Positions 1 to 37,484 of a stretch of DNA of 37,484 nt are shown here, piece by piece (within the stretch, counting starts at the first letter, position 1; every line of letters begins with the position of its first letter). Under the pieces are notes generated by a model. The model had not been told where the DNA came from. It ran no database searches and was given only the letters and a program-made list of their open reading frames with translations. The stretch spans positions 1 to 37,484 of the forward strand of contig JANYCN010000076.1 in the NCBI GenBank assembly GCA_025360225.1, given 5' to 3'. The position numbers were made by a program, and so were the translations under genes. The DNA comes from Actinomycetes bacterium. GTDB lineage: Bacteria > Actinomycetota > Thermoleophilia > Gaiellales > F1-60-MAGs149.

Positions 1-199
1 ACACGCCTACGAGCGGGCGTGCTAACCAGCACGCCCGCTCATCAGCAAGCTCCCTCGCCGTCGCTTGCCAGCCTTGCTCCTCGCGGAACTCTCCCCGAAC
101 CTCCGACCCAGGACACTGGTGGTCTGATTGCGCGACGCGCAACGCTCCCGCTCGCTCCAGGCACCCAATGACCATGCCACTTGACAATCAGACCACTAG
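1..199 (-). repeat. Dispersed modular repeat, copy A
   Basis: This copy reads from right to left. It opens with CTAGTGGTCTGATTG (rc of 185-199) and then carries a core shared almost base for base with copy C, ending in the palindrome TGCGCGTCGCGCA. An inverted copy of the opening sequence lies at 116-130 with one mismatch, so 116-199 is an 84-base unit with 15-base terminal inverted repeats. A module TGTCCTGGGTCGGAGGTTC, shared with copy B, follows at 94-115. A 13-base-pair hairpin shared with copy C comes at 11-40. The CTAG edge supplies the TAG stop codon of ndk. No transposase is encoded, so it could be a non-autonomous element or a structured 3' UTR repeat. Confidence 0.8.
11..40. terminator. 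Perfect hairpin inside repeat A
   Basis: GAGCGGGCGTGCT (11-23) and its exact reverse complement (28-40) are separated by the loop AACC. No T-run follows. It may act as a terminator or RNA-stabilising structure downstream of ndk, but that function is inferred. The same stem, with loop GGAT, recurs in copy C. Confidence 0.6.
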
Positions 200-609
200 C
201 CGATCAGACCGTCGCCGAAGAAGAGGGCGAGCTCGCGCTCGGCGGAGGCGGGCGAGTCACTGCCGTGGATGACGTTCTCCGCAAGGGCGATCGCGAGGTC
301 ACCGCGGATCGTGCCGAGCGCGGACTTCTTCGGGTCGGTCGCGCCCATCATGTCGCGCACGAGCGAGATCGCGCTCTCACCCTCCAGCGCGATCGCCACG
401 ATCGGACCGGACGTGATGAAGTCGACGAGCTCCCCGAAGAACGGGCGCGCCGCATGCTCAGCGTAGTGACGCTCCGCCGTGGCGCGATCGAGGACGAGAA
501 GCCGAAGCCCGCGGAAGCTGAGCCCCCGGCGCTCGAAGCGGCCAAGGATCTCTGCGATGAGCCCACGCCGGACGGCGTCGGGCTTGAGAAGAACGAGCGT
601 CGTTTCCAT
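196..609 (-). CDS. ndk: Nucleoside diphosphate kinase
   Basis: The 137-residue protein is the usual length for bacterial NDK. It transfers phosphate between nucleoside tri- and diphosphates through a phosphohistidine in the cytoplasm. The N-terminus METTLVLLKPDAV, the loop RGDLAIA and the active-site segment NVIHGSDSPASAERE, with the catalytic His, are typical. It follows valS-folC and membrane genes, the order seen in mycobacteria. No Shine-Dalgarno is visible; a -10-like TATCCT sits six bases before ATG, suggesting a leaderless mRNA. The TAG stop is part of the CTAG end of repeat A, so the repeat begins exactly where the gene ends. Confidence 0.97.
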   Translation of the reverse strand: METTLVLLKPDAVRRGLIAEILGRFERRGLSFRGLRLLVLDRATAERHYAEHAARPFFGELVDFITSGPIVAIALEGESAISLVRDMMGATDPKKSALGTIRGDLAIALAENVIHGSDSPASAERELALFFGDGLIG

Positions 610-13787: not shown

Positions 13788-14625
13788 ATCGACCCTCAAG
13801 ACGGTCGCGGAGAGCGAGCACGATCTCGGCTGCGGTGTGACCACCGACCGTCATCGCCGCCACGTGCAGCGCGCGGACGTCGCAGCGGGCCGAGCGAACG
13901 GCAGACTCGACGGCGGCGTGAAGCATGTCTGGCTCGTTCGCGTCTGGCGCGACGACAGCGAAGCTCGTTCGCCCGATCGTCTCCATCCGATACAGGGCGT
14001 CCGCCGGCCCGAGCACGCCGGCGAGGGCCGTCGCGAGGGCATCGACCGATCCTCCGTGCTCGCCGTCGGCGAGGCGCACGTCGATCCCCGCAACAGCGAT
14101 CTCGAGCGGCAACGTCGCCTGCAGCGCGAGAAGACGATCGACATCCTCCGTGAAGCAGCGCTCGTCGCGGAGCCCGGTCACCGGGTCCGACCGCGAGACG
14201 CTCACGGCGCGCCTCGCCTGACGAGCGTGCCGGATTCCCGCCTTGATCGCCTCCGCCAGCACCGTCGGGTCGAACGGCTTCGTCACCACCGCGTCGGCGC
14301 CGGCATCGCTGGCGATCTGGGCGTACTCGGGCTCCTGGCGCCCGGTGACGACGACGATGTGCGCCGTCGCGAGCGCCGGGTCCTCCCGTGCAGCGCTGCA
14401 CAGCGAGATCCCGTCAAGGCCCGGCATGAGCCAGTCCAGGACGATCGCGTCCGGGCTCGACGCCGTCGCACGTGCCAGCCCGGTGCGGCCGTCCGACGCA
14501 AACTCGACGAGCAATCCGACGTCCTCGAGCGCCCCACCGATCAGCGCGAGCATCCCCGGGTCGTCCTCACACACGAGGACCCGTCCAGGCGAATCAAGCG
14601 ACACGAGATGACCGTGATCTCCCAC
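13777..14625 (-). CDS. Response regulator with degenerate GGDEF domain
   Basis: The 282-residue protein has an N-terminal receiver domain (about 14-132) with acidic pair ED, phospho-acceptor Asp64 (IVLDWLMPG) and the KPFD lysine. A C-terminal region starting SDPVTGLRDERCF aligns with diguanylate cyclase domains, but the GGDEF signature is replaced by GRTSF. It should not make c-di-GMP and may act as a phospho-dependent binding or scaffold protein. It overlaps the secreted protease gene downstream by a few bases, suggesting a shared transcript. No kinase is adjacent. Start GTG 14625 is moderately certain. Confidence 0.85.
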   Translation of the reverse strand: MGDHGHLVSLDSPGRVLVCEDDPGMLALIGGALEDVGLLVEFASDGRTGLARATASSPDAIVLDWLMPGLDGISLCSAAREDPALATAHIVVVTGRQEPEYAQIASDAGADAVVTKPFDPTVLAEAIKAGIRHARQARRAVSVSRSDPVTGLRDERCFTEDVDRLLALQATLPLEIAVAGIDVRLADGEHGGSVDALATALAGVLGPADALYRMETIGRTSFAVVAPDANEPDMLHAAVESAVRSARCDVRALHVAAMTVGGHTAAEIVLALRDRLEGRFAP

Positions 14626-14696
14626 GTCCTCGGTATCGACGGTGAGCGCTCGAGGGGCCGCACCCAGACGGGGGGTTAGGGCCTCGTCATCGTTCG

Positions 14697-15016
14697 CCCG
14701 AACCTCTGACCCAGGACACCTGTGGGCTGACTGTCAAACCGCGGCGTCATCGGGTGTCTGGAACGAGCGGGGGCGTTGCGCGTCGCGCAGGGCGTGCCGG
14801 GGCAAGTGCAAGCGGCGCGCGACGCTCCCGCGAAGCCCACGATCCGGCACGCACAGCGGGCCGCGGCGTGGTCGCCGGAGCTGGGCGGCGCAGCCGGCCG
14901 CAGGGTGGCGCAGCCGGCCGCAGGGTGGCGCAGCCGGCCGCAGGGTGGCGCAGCCGGCCAGCGCAGGACGATCCAGGCGCGCGAATGACCACGCCATTTG
15001 ACAATCAGACCACTAG
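14697..15016 (-). repeat. Dispersed modular repeat, copy B
   Basis: This is the largest gap between genes, and I see no coding region in it. The element starts at CTAG (15013-15016), the TAG of which ends the 110-residue gene. Its far end is an inverted, diverged copy (CTGTGGGCTGACTGTCAAA from 14720) that continues with the same core as copies A and C, including TTGCGCGTCGCGCA. Between the inverted ends lie a 20-base tandem repeat and about 100 unique bases. The module CCCGAACCTCTGACCCAGG, shared with copy A, borders it at 14697. No transposase is encoded. Confidence 0.8.
14887..14959. repeat. 20-base tandem repeat, 3.65 copies
   Basis: The unit GGCGCAGCCGGCCGCAGGGT is repeated three times exactly (14887-14946) and then 13 bases more. 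It is wholly inside repeat B. The units contain the palindrome GCCGGC. There are no spacers, so it is not CRISPR. Confidence 0.9.
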
Positions 15017-15345
15017 GCGGCGAGACCGGCCTGCTGTGCAAACCGCTGAAGCGCATCGAGGTGCGTGGCCTGCCCACCGTCGCCCCAAAACGGCGGCGTC
15101 TGCCCGGCCTGCCGGATCAGCGCGTCGAGCTCGCTCAGGCGATGGCTGGTGAACAGTCGCTCGGCGAGCGCGAGAGCCTCGTCGCGCGAGCCGGCACGGG
15201 CCTGCGTCGGAGGAACGCTCGTGGCGCTGCCGTTCCGAACGGTCACCCACCACCCGGTCGGACGATCAGGGGTGAGGAACAGGTGGTAGCCGTGCGCGGC
15301 CAGCCGTGCGCGGAGGTCATCGAACGGGGATCCGGAAGCGCTCAC
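15013..15345 (-). CDS. Hypothetical protein, 110 residues
   Basis: This is a soluble protein with no signal peptide or membrane segment. It has a two-part look: residues 1-60 contain GYHLFLTPD and GWWVTVRNG strands. Residues 60-110 are helical, with DEALALAERLF, LSELDALIRQ and LDALQRFAQQ. I do not recognise the family. The GTG at 15345 is chosen because TACGCT stands six bases before it. The TAG stop is the edge of repeat B. Thioredoxin lies 77 bases upstream on the same strand. Confidence 0.7.
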   Translation of the reverse strand: MSASGSPFDDLRARLAAHGYHLFLTPDRPTGWWVTVRNGSATSVPPTQARAGSRDEALALAERLFTSHRLSELDALIRQAGQTPPFWGDGGQATHLDALQRFAQQAGLAA

Positions 15346-15351
15346 GGTCGA

Positions 15352-15357
15352 AGCGTA
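15352..15357 (-). promoter_or_regulatory. -10 box for leaderless 110-residue gene
   Basis: TACGCT on the minus strand, six bases (TCGACC), then GTG 15345. Confidence 0.5.
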
Positions 15358-15422
15358 CCGCGCGCGCCCCCAGCCGACACGGTTCGCCAAGGACAGACAA
15401 CCCGTTCGAGACTGGCGTAGGA

Positions 15423-34273: not shown

Positions 34274-36337
34274 GTGAGTCATGACGGCGACAAGCTAATC
34301 CGACAGCTCTCGCTGGTCGCATACCTCATGGCGGAGCGCCGCCCGGTCACGGCACGCGACGCGAAGAGCGCGGTTGAGGGCTACTCGGAGATGTCCGATG
34401 ACGCGTTCGCGCGACGCTTCTACGCCGATCGCGCCGAGCTGCTTGCGCTCGGCGTCGGCATCACGTCACAACGCGACGAGTTCACCGGCGAGGAGCTGTA
34501 CACGCTCGGGCGTGAGGACTACTTCCTGCCGGCGCTCCACCTCGACGACGCCGAGCTTGCTGCGCTCCAGACCTGCCTGTACCTGCTCGAGGGCCAGTTC
34601 GCGTACTCCGAGCCGCTCCGGCTCGCGCTGCAAAACCTCGCGCTCGGCCGACCGAACCCGACCGCTCCCGTGCCCGACGCCGCGCTCACCCTCAACCTGA
34701 CTGGCGGCGGCTACTCGCCGGAGATCGCGCAGCGACTCGCGAAGCTCGAGACCGCCATCTCGAAACAGCGCACCCTGGTGTTCCCCTACTTCACGATGGG
34801 TCGCGGCGAGGAGTCGGTGCGCACCATCGACCCGTACTGCCTCTACTTCCAAGGGTCTCAGTGGTACGTCGTCGGCCGCGACCGCGATCGGGAGGCGATC
34901 CGCGTCTTTCGCGTGTCGCGGATCCGCGGCGATCTGCGTTTCGCGACGCGCCGAGAACGCGACTTCCGCTACCCGGAAGGGTTTGATCCAGCCCACTACC
35001 GGGATCGCGCGACGTGGCAGCTCGGAGAACCGCAGGGCGAGGCAGTCCTGACGGTGACACCGACCGCTGCATGGCTGGTCGAGCGCCAGTGGGCAGCACA
35101 CGGCACCGTCGAGACGCTCGATGACCGGTCGGCACGCTTCACGACGCCGTACGCCAGCCTCGAGCTGCTCGTCACGTGGATCATCGGCATGGACGGCCAG
35201 GTCGCCCCCATCAGCCCGCCCGAGCTCGTGGACGAGCTCGCGACAGCGCTCGAGCGCGGACGCGAGGCGCACGAGGGAAGCGCGCCAGCGATCGCTGCGC
35301 CGATCGAGCTCGTTCCCGAGATCGAGCCAGTGGCGGCCACACCGCGGCGGTCTAGCCCGGTCGCGCCGGAGCGCTTCGCCGTCCTTCAGGCAATGCTCGC
35401 CGACCTGCTTGAGGGCTGCGGTGACGCGCCGACCGGCGAGGTGTCGACGAAGGTGCTGATGGACCGCTACCAGCTGACCGAGGAGAGCCTCATCGAGCAG
35501 GTCAACCTGCTCAACCTGGTGAACTTCGGCGGAGGCTGCTACGCCGTGTACGCAGAGTTCGAGGGCGACAAGATCCGCGTCGAGAAGGAGCTCTATGGCG
35601 AGGAGTTCCGGCGCCCCGCCCGGCTCTCACCGCTGGAGGCGAAAGCAATCCTGATGGCCCTCGACCTCGTCGGCCCCCAGGTCGCCGCCGGCGCCGGCAC
35701 CACCCTCGGACACGTTCGGGCGAAGGTCGAGGCGGCGTTCGGGCGTTTCGCGCTTCGTGAGACCCCCACCCCGGTCTCCCAGGTCGACGACGAGGGCATC
35801 CTCTCGGTGCTGAACGACAGCATCCGTAACCGTCGGCTCGTCGAGATCAACTACCTGTCGCGTACCGGCGACGGCGTCCGGGCACGGACGATCGAGCCGT
35901 ACCTGCTGCGCGGGGTCGGTTCGGACTGGTACCTCGAGTCCTACGACATCACCTCTGACGGCGAGCGCACGTTCCGCGTCGACCGCATCCGATCGGCGAC
36001 GGCGCTCGGCACGACCTTTGCGCGGCGGCTTGGTCTCTCGGTGATCGAGTCCGACCGATCGCCGCGTGGTCGTAGCGGCACGGTGTCGGTGTGGTTCTCG
36101 CCCGAGATCGCCCCGCGCGAGGCGGAGAACCTGCCGACAAGCTCGCCGCTCCGTGACGGCTCAGCGCTCACGACGATCTCCTACGGATCGGAACGATGGC
36201 TCGCGACGGAGATCCTCAAGCACCGCGGTGCCGCCGTGCTGATCGAGCCCGAGGCACTACGGGCGATGGTCGCCCGACGTGCGGCGGAGCTCGCCGGCAC
36301 GCTCGTGCGGCGGGATCTCGGCTCCGCGGCACGATGA
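34274..36337 (+). CDS. pafBC: Fused PafB-PafC WYL-domain regulator
   Basis: The 687-residue protein joins two copies of the HTH-WYL architecture. Half 1 has a winged-helix start (about 1-90) and a WYL domain with RTIDPYCLYFQGSQWYVVGRD. Half 2 starts at about 370 (PERFAVLQAMLADLLEG) and has a WYL domain with TIEPYLLRGVGSDWYLESYD. In mycobacteria PafB and PafC form a heterodimer that activates RecA/LexA-independent DNA-damage genes; single-chain fusions are known in other actinobacteria. Divergent dinB fits this role. The next gene overlaps its stop (ATGA). Confidence 0.9.
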   Translation: MSHDGDKLIRQLSLVAYLMAERRPVTARDAKSAVEGYSEMSDDAFARRFYADRAELLALGVGITSQRDEFTGEELYTLGREDYFLPALHLDDAELAALQTCLYLLEGQFAYSEPLRLALQNLALGRPNPTAPVPDAALTLNLTGGGYSPEIAQRLAKLETAISKQRTLVFPYFTMGRGEESVRTIDPYCLYFQGSQWYVVGRDRDREAIRVFRVSRIRGDLRFATRRERDFRYPEGFDPAHYRDRATWQLGEPQGEAVLTVTPTAAWLVERQWAAHGTVETLDDRSARFTTPYASLELLVTWIIGMDGQVAPISPPELVDELATALERGREAHEGSAPAIAAPIELVPEIEPVAATPRRSSPVAPERFAVLQAMLADLLEGCGDAPTGEVSTKVLMDRYQLTEESLIEQVNLLNLVNFGGGCYAVYAEFEGDKIRVEKELYGEEFRRPARLSPLEAKAILMALDLVGPQVAAGAGTTLGHVRAKVEAAFGRFALRETPTPVSQVDDEGILSVLNDSIRNRRLVEINYLSRTGDGVRARTIEPYLLRGVGSDWYLESYDITSDGERTFRVDRIRSATALGTTFARRLGLSVIESDRSPRGRSGTVSVWFSPEIAPREAENLPTSSPLRDGSALTTISYGSERWLATEILKHRGAAVLIEPEALRAMVARRAAELAGTLVRRDLGSAAR

Positions 36338-37290
36338 TCCGCTACCTCTCGGAGGCCGAGGTTGAGCGCTGCCAGCCGACCGTCCTCGCGGGTATCTCGA
36401 TCGCCCGGGGCGCGCTGACCGCGCTCGCGTCCGACCACGCGCAGCTGCCACCGAAGGCCTCGGTCTTCCCGCGCCCGGGCTCGTTCGCGAACACCATGCC
36501 CGCCTACGTCGCCCCACACGCGGGCGGCTCCGAGGCCCTCGGGCTGAAGTGGGTCGGGGTGTACCCGACGAACCCGGAGCGCGGGCTGGCCCTGATCAAC
36601 GGCATCCTCCTCGCCGCCGATCCCGAGACTGGCCTTCCGTTGGCGATCATGGGCGCAGCACACGAGACCGGCATCCGCACGGCAGCGGTGAGCGGGGCCT
36701 GCATCGCCGCTCTGGCGCGACCCGTCGTCGGCAACGTCGCGATCACCGGTGCGGGCGTCCAGACGCGCACGCACCTCGCGGTGTGTGAGGCTCTCGGCCA
36801 TCACGACGTGACCGTCTTCGCTCGACGGCAGGAGGCGGGCGAGGCGCTGCGCAGGTGGAGCGAGTCTTCGACGCCGGGAATCCGACTCACCGTCGTCTCG
36901 CGCGCGACTGACGCCGTGCCTGGGGCCGGCGTCGTCATCACCGGCGTCCCGATCGGCGCCGTCGGTGCGCTGATCGAGCCAGAGCTGTTCGATGAGGACG
37001 CGCTCGTGCTGCCGCTCGACTACGGGACGTCGATTGGCGCTTCCGTCGCGAACAGCGGCCACCTCTTCACGGACGACGTGCCGCAGTTCGCGCGGTTCGT
37101 CGAGCGCGGCGCGTTCCCCGGGTACCGCGACGCCGACGGTTACACCGGCGACGCGCTCGAGCTGGTCGCGCGACCCCCAGGCAGGATCGTGTGCCAGAAC
37201 CTCGGTCAAGGCGCCGCTGACGCCCTGTTCGCTCGCGCGATCCTCGCGAACGCCGAGACGCTTGGCATCGGCACCCTCCTGGTGCGGTAG
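36334..37290 (+). CDS. Ornithine cyclodeaminase/mu-crystallin family protein
   Basis: The 318-residue NAD(P)-dependent protein has the substrate Lys72 in LGLKWVGVYPTNPERG, ETGIRTAAVSG with Arg115, a Rossmann motif TGAGVQT (about 134-140) and LDYGTSIG. The family includes ornithine cyclodeaminase, alanine dehydrogenase (archaeal) and ketimine reductases. The substrate cannot be assigned: several positions differ from classic ornithine cyclodeaminases. ATG overlaps the pafBC stop; a longer frame inside pafBC is rejected. The TAG stop lies about 50 bases before repeat C. Confidence 0.88.
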   Translation: MIRYLSEAEVERCQPTVLAGISIARGALTALASDHAQLPPKASVFPRPGSFANTMPAYVAPHAGGSEALGLKWVGVYPTNPERGLALINGILLAADPETGLPLAIMGAAHETGIRTAAVSGACIAALARPVVGNVAITGAGVQTRTHLAVCEALGHHDVTVFARRQEAGEALRRWSESSTPGIRLTVVSRATDAVPGAGVVITGVPIGAVGALIEPELFDEDALVLPLDYGTSIGASVANSGHLFTDDVPQFARFVERGAFPGYRDADGYTGDALELVARPPGRIVCQNLGQGAADALFARAILANAETLGIGTLLVR

Positions 37291-37339: not shown

Positions 37340-37484
37340 CTAGTAGTGGTCTGATTGTCAAATGGCATGGTCATCGGGTGTCTGGAGCGAGCGGGAGCGT
37401 TGCGCGTCGCGCAGGGCTTGCTGATCGCGGGCGTGCTGGATAGCACGCCCGCTCGCACGCGTGTCAAGGCGAAGGCCTTGACAC
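37340..37484 (+). repeat. Dispersed modular repeat, copy C (runs to window end)
   Basis: This copy reads left to right from CTAGTAGTGGTCTGATTG. About 69 bases match copy A with three substitutions and one TAG insertion, ending in TTGCGCGTCGCGCA. It then passes directly into GCTTGCTGAT and the 11-base-pair stem GCGGGCGTGCT/AGCACGCCCGC (37427-37452), skipping about 90 bases present in copy A. It lies downstream of a plus-strand gene in sense orientation, like the other two copies. Confidence 0.8.
37461..37484. repeat. Perfect hairpin at right end of window
   Basis: GTGTCAAGGC, loop GAAG, GCCTTGACAC: a perfect ten-base stem that ends on the last base of the window. Copy A begins at the matching place (ACACGCCT), so both window ends break at this point of the repeat. 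Confidence 0.75.

Follow-up and report, generated by a model that had tools for sequence, protein, structure and literature searches.

The closest published case found for the repeats described here is MITEPsy1 of Pseudomonas syringae, a small, geneless element with inverted ends that duplicates 4 nt on insertion at CTAG or YTAA and whose movement has been shown (PMC3189936). MITEPsy1 also uses CTAG, but it is 100 nt long, occurs in six copies in that genome and has ends like those of the IS5-family element ISPsy2; the available portion of the report mentions no stop-codon pattern and describes some copies that interrupt genes (PMC3189936). RUP of Streptococcus pneumoniae is similar in its 108 intergenic copies and in the resident IS transposase proposed as its mover, and it differs in its length of 107 bp, its link to IS630 and its TA target; stop-codon placement goes unmentioned in the part of the source that was available (PMC2229807). 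The Correia/NEMIS elements share inverted ends, a stem-loop RNA and the intergenic spread of one of their two species, but these species measure 107 and 155 bp and RNase III processing is proposed for them; the likeness, drawn from an excerpt of the source, is one of description (PMC2229807). Among insertion sequences of the IS701 family, 12 of 19 relatives examined show a CTAG duplication, and one member resides at CTAG in the host; they differ in encoding a transposase, and their ends are weakly similar to those of the repeat. Elements of this kind are already known, and the family reported here is a known kind with a new sequence.

The window is a stretch of 37,484 nt that constitutes the entire contig C8, one of 89 in a draft assembly of 3.24 Mb. 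Because the window is the whole contig, two of its three repeat copies (A and C) are at the edges of the contig and copy C is cut off. The three copies are very probably (probability about 0.9) members of a family of non-autonomous inverted-repeat elements (MITEs) that are commonly 312 bp long. Their common ends, recognized in the earlier note, are present in the sequence, and copies A and C match at all but 3 of 68 bases. The extents first assigned to A (1–199) and B (14697–15016) had to be corrected to those in Table 1, which excludes the adjoining 21-nt segments from the repeat. CTAG does provide the TAG stop codon of ndk at copy A and of a predicted gene at copy B. The ndk gene is not truncated, because its Pfam match runs nearly to the end of the profile. 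All three copies had been placed directly 3' of a gene; this holds for A and for the R end of B, which are on stop codons, and not for C, which begins beyond the stop of its upstream neighbor. The gene next to the L end of copy B encodes a response regulator and has its 5' end toward the element. A 20-bp tandem repeat occupies 14880–14959 in the R half of copy B; none of the other 34 copies in the alignment has it.

Table 1. Features of the window associated with the three repeat copies
Feature	Position	Strand	Remarks
Hairpin module	1..50	-	similar to the hairpin insert found in the 312-bp MITE form
IS630-end-like remnant beside copy A	96..116	-	21 nt
Copy A, internally deleted MITE	119..196	-	78 bp; L end at 196, reads down to 119
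CTAG flank of copy A	196..199	.	TAG is the stop codon of ndk
ndk, nucleoside diphosphate kinase	196..609 (listed also 199..609)	-	Pfam NDK, profile position 132 of 135 reached
IS630-end-like remnant beside copy B	14699..14719	-	21 nt
Copy B, MITE with both ends	14722..15013	+	292 bp; L left, R right; double-hairpin insert absent
CTAG flank of copy B	15013..15016	.	TAG is the stop codon of the minus-strand gene
Predicted gene ending on CTAG	15013..15390	-	125 aa; home-made caller, start uncertain; no family match in Pfam or NCBIfam
Ornithine cyclodeaminase/mu-crystallin family gene upstream of copy C	36334..37290	+	stop 55 b before the element
CTAG, left flank of copy C	37340..37343	.	variant flank CTAG-TA-GTGG
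Copy C, L half of a MITE	37346..37484	+	cut by the contig end

The draft genome was searched with an 18-letter end pattern that included CTAG, allowing 2 mismatches, and with the same pattern read backwards as a control. The search returned 244 end matches (about 120 copies) and the control none, which puts the family well outside chance expectation. The stretches around the copies were merged into 129 pieces totaling 590 kb, and 226 distinct ends were retained from matches with up to 3 mismatches after duplicates and weak matches were removed. These ends represent 62 complete elements and 102 single ends, 71 of which are within 330 b of the end of their sequence stretch; the repeats show why the draft genome breaks where it does. 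The elements are short (69–332 bp), lack a transposase gene and are present in many copies. The commonest size is 311–313 bp (15 of 62), and another 11 measure 247–256 bp. When 35 copies are aligned (32 complete elements from the 62 and three copies of a sister element described below), the shorter form, of about 250 bp, is seen to lack a segment of about 62 bp bearing two hairpins. The elements end in GTGGTCTGATTG, usually preceded by CTA, and their terminal inverted repeats match over 32 bp at 94% between the L and R ends. The median pairwise identity among 79 compared L ends is 88%, with the commonest sequence found 12 times. Inverted ends, usual CTA..TAG flanks, both orientations and many similar copies support the mobile, non-autonomous alternative that the earlier note had offered. 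Hairpin modules (GCGGGCGTGCTGGATAGCACGCCCGC and others) also occur outside the MITE, at window positions 1–50 and at L154:3420–3530, L118:3490–3550 and L150:4663–4720, and look like a second dispersed repeat.

The flanks of the elements point to CTAG as the target. CTA precedes 150 of the 226 ends and CTC precedes 39, with an intact CTA missing from 76 in all; CTA on one side is accompanied by TAG on the other in 24 of the 62 complete elements. CTAG is palindromic, and a visual reading of the 62 flank pairs revealed no longer direct repeat around the elements. Only 12 CTAG sites are present in the window, compared with 104 expected from base composition and 26 expected from a second-order Markov model, and 3 of the 12 are element flanks. 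The MITE would be moved in trans by a transposase cutting at CTAG, and insertion would duplicate either CTAG or the TA inside it, two outcomes that look the same at a palindrome. A TAG stop codon at the target would be rebuilt on insertion and the protein would remain unchanged.

Gene neighborhoods were assigned with a home-made gene caller trained on the same 590-kb stretches. The 226 ends face the 3' end of a predicted gene in 161 cases and a 5' end in 55; 3 are entered by a gene and 7 have no neighbor. At 54 of the 226 ends the flanking TAG is the stop codon of the predicted gene, and 48 of these 54 adjoin genes with a score of at least 20 and a length of at least 300 b (25 L and 23 R ends). 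Stops at the junctions divide into 54 TAG, 7 TGA and 1 later stop, a distribution far from equal (p about 2e-18), which indicates that the genes ending on an element mostly retain their native stops and are not truncated. A closed start is present in 52 at-stop proteins; 20 of these were scanned, and 12 match their best NCBIfam family to within 5 positions of the profile end, 8 of them above the curated cut-off. Among these 8, the match ends at position 842 of 843 in LeuS, 594 of 594 in TypA, 557 of 557 in formate-THF ligase, 356 of 357 in DisA and 331 of 331 in F420-G6PD. The remaining 8 comprise 2 without a family at E 1e-20 and 6 whose match stops short of that point or is confined to a domain. 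Both flanks supply stops to both convergent neighbors in 2 of the 62 complete elements (L107 and L126), as expected if the two genes once shared one palindromic CTAG; a single shared CTAG is found in 1 of 75 convergent pairs in the 590 kb.

The elements have no preferred reading direction relative to the adjacent gene. All three window copies had been described as sense-oriented, but copy B lies antisense to the gene whose stop codon it adjoins. The sense rule fails genome-wide as well, the ends at stops being 25 L and 29 R (p = 0.68) and the counts in tandem contexts 12 versus 10. This lack of orientation bias weighs against a structured 3' UTR or bidirectional terminator repeat that is retained for ending the transcripts of convergent genes, as does the orientation of 55 ends toward the 5' end of a gene. 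Several observations favor such a function: the folding energy of the composite is -219 kcal/mol (z = -15.7), a sister copy also folds strongly (z = -9.5), 93.5% of pair cells stay paired over the 35 aligned copies, and convergent genes surround 29 of the 54 fully flanked elements. In the outer inverted-repeat stem, doubly changed pairs outnumber those of slid controls (14 versus 4–7); the inner stems taken together show no such surplus (9 versus 5–11), so the inverted ends account for much of the foldback, and selection on an RNA structure was rejected. Around copy B, the sole copy scanned, no stem followed by a T-run was found in 14600–15100, and the window contains no Rfam match at gathering thresholds. 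The UTR or terminator reading is therefore unsupported as the earlier note framed it, and a role of this type is improbable. Repeats at 3' ends should not be read as regulatory RNA without an orientation test.

The strong target preference for gene 3' ends that had been proposed is mostly an indirect effect of the CTAG target combined with selection. CTAG sites outside the elements served as a control, in the 590 kb chosen around the copies. They number 85 inside coding sequence and 73 in noncoding sequence, 26 of the latter being stops; a previous census under different masking counted 84 coding, 55 intergenic and 34 stop CTAGs (34 of 89 noncoding). A gene runs into 2 of the 62 complete elements and into 1 single end, and the coding-interior test used 3 of 62, counting the single end. 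The fraction of complete elements at stops (31 of 62) is not significantly above that of free noncoding CTAGs (26 of 73, p = 0.12). CTAG is rare, and about a third of its free noncoding sites are stops; in the proposed mechanism insertions inside genes would be lost by selection, so that the survivors would accumulate at gene ends. The availability of CTAG and selection against hits inside genes explain most of the placement. The account is simple and countable: a rare, palindromic, TAG-containing target that is rebuilt, together with selection, would gather an element at gene 3' ends without any recognition of those ends.

Two subsets depart from the free-site control and raise the question of whether something beyond the word CTAG directs the transposase to stop codons or gene 3' ends. 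Convergent contexts are in excess among the elements (29 of 54, versus 12 of 49 free CTAGs; p = 0.003), and 16 of the 24 elements that retain an intact CTA at both flanks are at stops (p = 0.0096), as are 5 of 6 stretches in the sister genome (p = 0.03). Against guidance, complete elements as a whole show no significant excess, and those without both flanks intact are at stops in 15 of 38 cases (p = 0.69). The same excesses are expected from selection acting on promoters and on the stop codon itself: the convergent excess is compatible with selection because promoters are disfavored as sites, and the intact-flank excess is compatible because selection preserves a CTAG that is a stop. Guidance of the transposase is accordingly unlikely, and the CTAG habit explains the gathering at gene ends.

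The family may be extended into a broader proposal, which we advance tentatively, of stop codons as a safe haven for a mobile element. The CTAG palindrome would let the family rebuild TAG on either strand and take up positions at gene ends, even between a convergent pair that once shared one CTAG, at almost no cost; the habit would have persisted in two genera as the end sequences diverged, allowing about 120 copies in a 3.2-Mb genome. The second genus is represented by a single genome. The end pattern has no match in 60 relatives (2 mismatches) or 398 class members (1 mismatch), a search by patterns that miss diverged families, including the sister element. A similarity search with a 318-nt composite against 120 relatives, in which 6 candidates per genome were scored, identified one clear relative, G003, from the same family as the host (7 matches, best E 3e-10); in ten further genomes a single short match each was near the threshold. 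The outer ends of the G003 element differ (GTGGTTCGACACGG) and its core is the same, with a length of 261 bp in three complete aligned copies. CTAG adjoins the L end in 5 of 6 G003 stretches, and the flanking TAG closes an open frame of 190–528 codons in 5 of 6. Pfam assigns three of these five frames to citrate synthase, DUF4446 and an IS630 transposase; one gives a weak sub-threshold match and one gives none. A plasmid collection yielded three short matches with 12–16% coverage that were judged unrelated, and the 32-letter MITE end has no exact match among viral contigs.

An IS701-family enzyme is the preferred candidate for the mobilizing transposase, at roughly even odds. The target rule of the family is YTAR. 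The host carries a resident IS701-family element (NCBIfam E 2e-93) whose left ends are at CTAG in both of the 2 cases seen, and relatives on plasmids have an exact CTAG duplication with inverted ends at 12 of 19 loci (as the second-ranked solution in two). The similarity between MITE and IS701 ends is weak, with a best p of 0.011 among 25 comparisons; in the comparison of the MITE with IS ends the best p is 0.006 among 36, and the host's own IS701 element is not significant. Two Geobacillus IS701 elements have duplications of 4–9 bp without a consensus target, according to the accessible part of that report (PMC8024623). Profiles PF13358, PF01609, PF13359, PF13340 and PF13546 retrieved no autonomous copy with MITE ends from an assembly that breaks in the MITE repeats and could lack a copy of 1–2 kb. 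PF13340 was set aside as a lead to a parent, since it found only a separate, decayed IS5-type remnant on C22.

Mobilization by an IS630-type transposase, with TA duplicated inside CTAG, appears rather unlikely. It would fit the IS630 element with CTA/TAG flanks that touches a MITE in G003 and the IS630-end-like remnants that adjoin copies A and B, a motif of which no other copy was found in the 590 kb around the MITE copies. The host assembly has no DDE_3 transposase (PF13358) at E <= 0.001, and the MITE ends are not significantly similar to the two ends of one IS630 element or to the two remnants (lowest p 0.075), and both results speak against the IS630 type. At L263 in G003, an IS630 element with both ends has the TAG stop of its own transposase supplied by the CTAG at the insertion site.

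A third candidate was an IS5-family element that is fused to MITE halves on C26, C84 and C53, from which the MITE could have arisen by deletion. The element on C26 and C84 was detected with PF01609 and a DNA search, and its N-terminal half is on C53. A scan of a genome-contig collection with part of this IS5 element turned up 12 distant loci, which were left aside. The order of features, a transposase stop followed by a MITE R half, is what such a derivation would leave. The IS5-family element has its own inverted ends, which differ from those of the MITE, and is inserted inside the MITE at TAA; IS5 parentage was rejected and is highly improbable. The element occupies the same TAA within the MITE copies at L193 (C26:1–430), L176 (C84:1–128) and L160 (start of C53). 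The R halves on C26 and C84 differ by 13.5% and the IS parts by 3%, a disparity that also stands against parentage and suggests independent insertions at one site.
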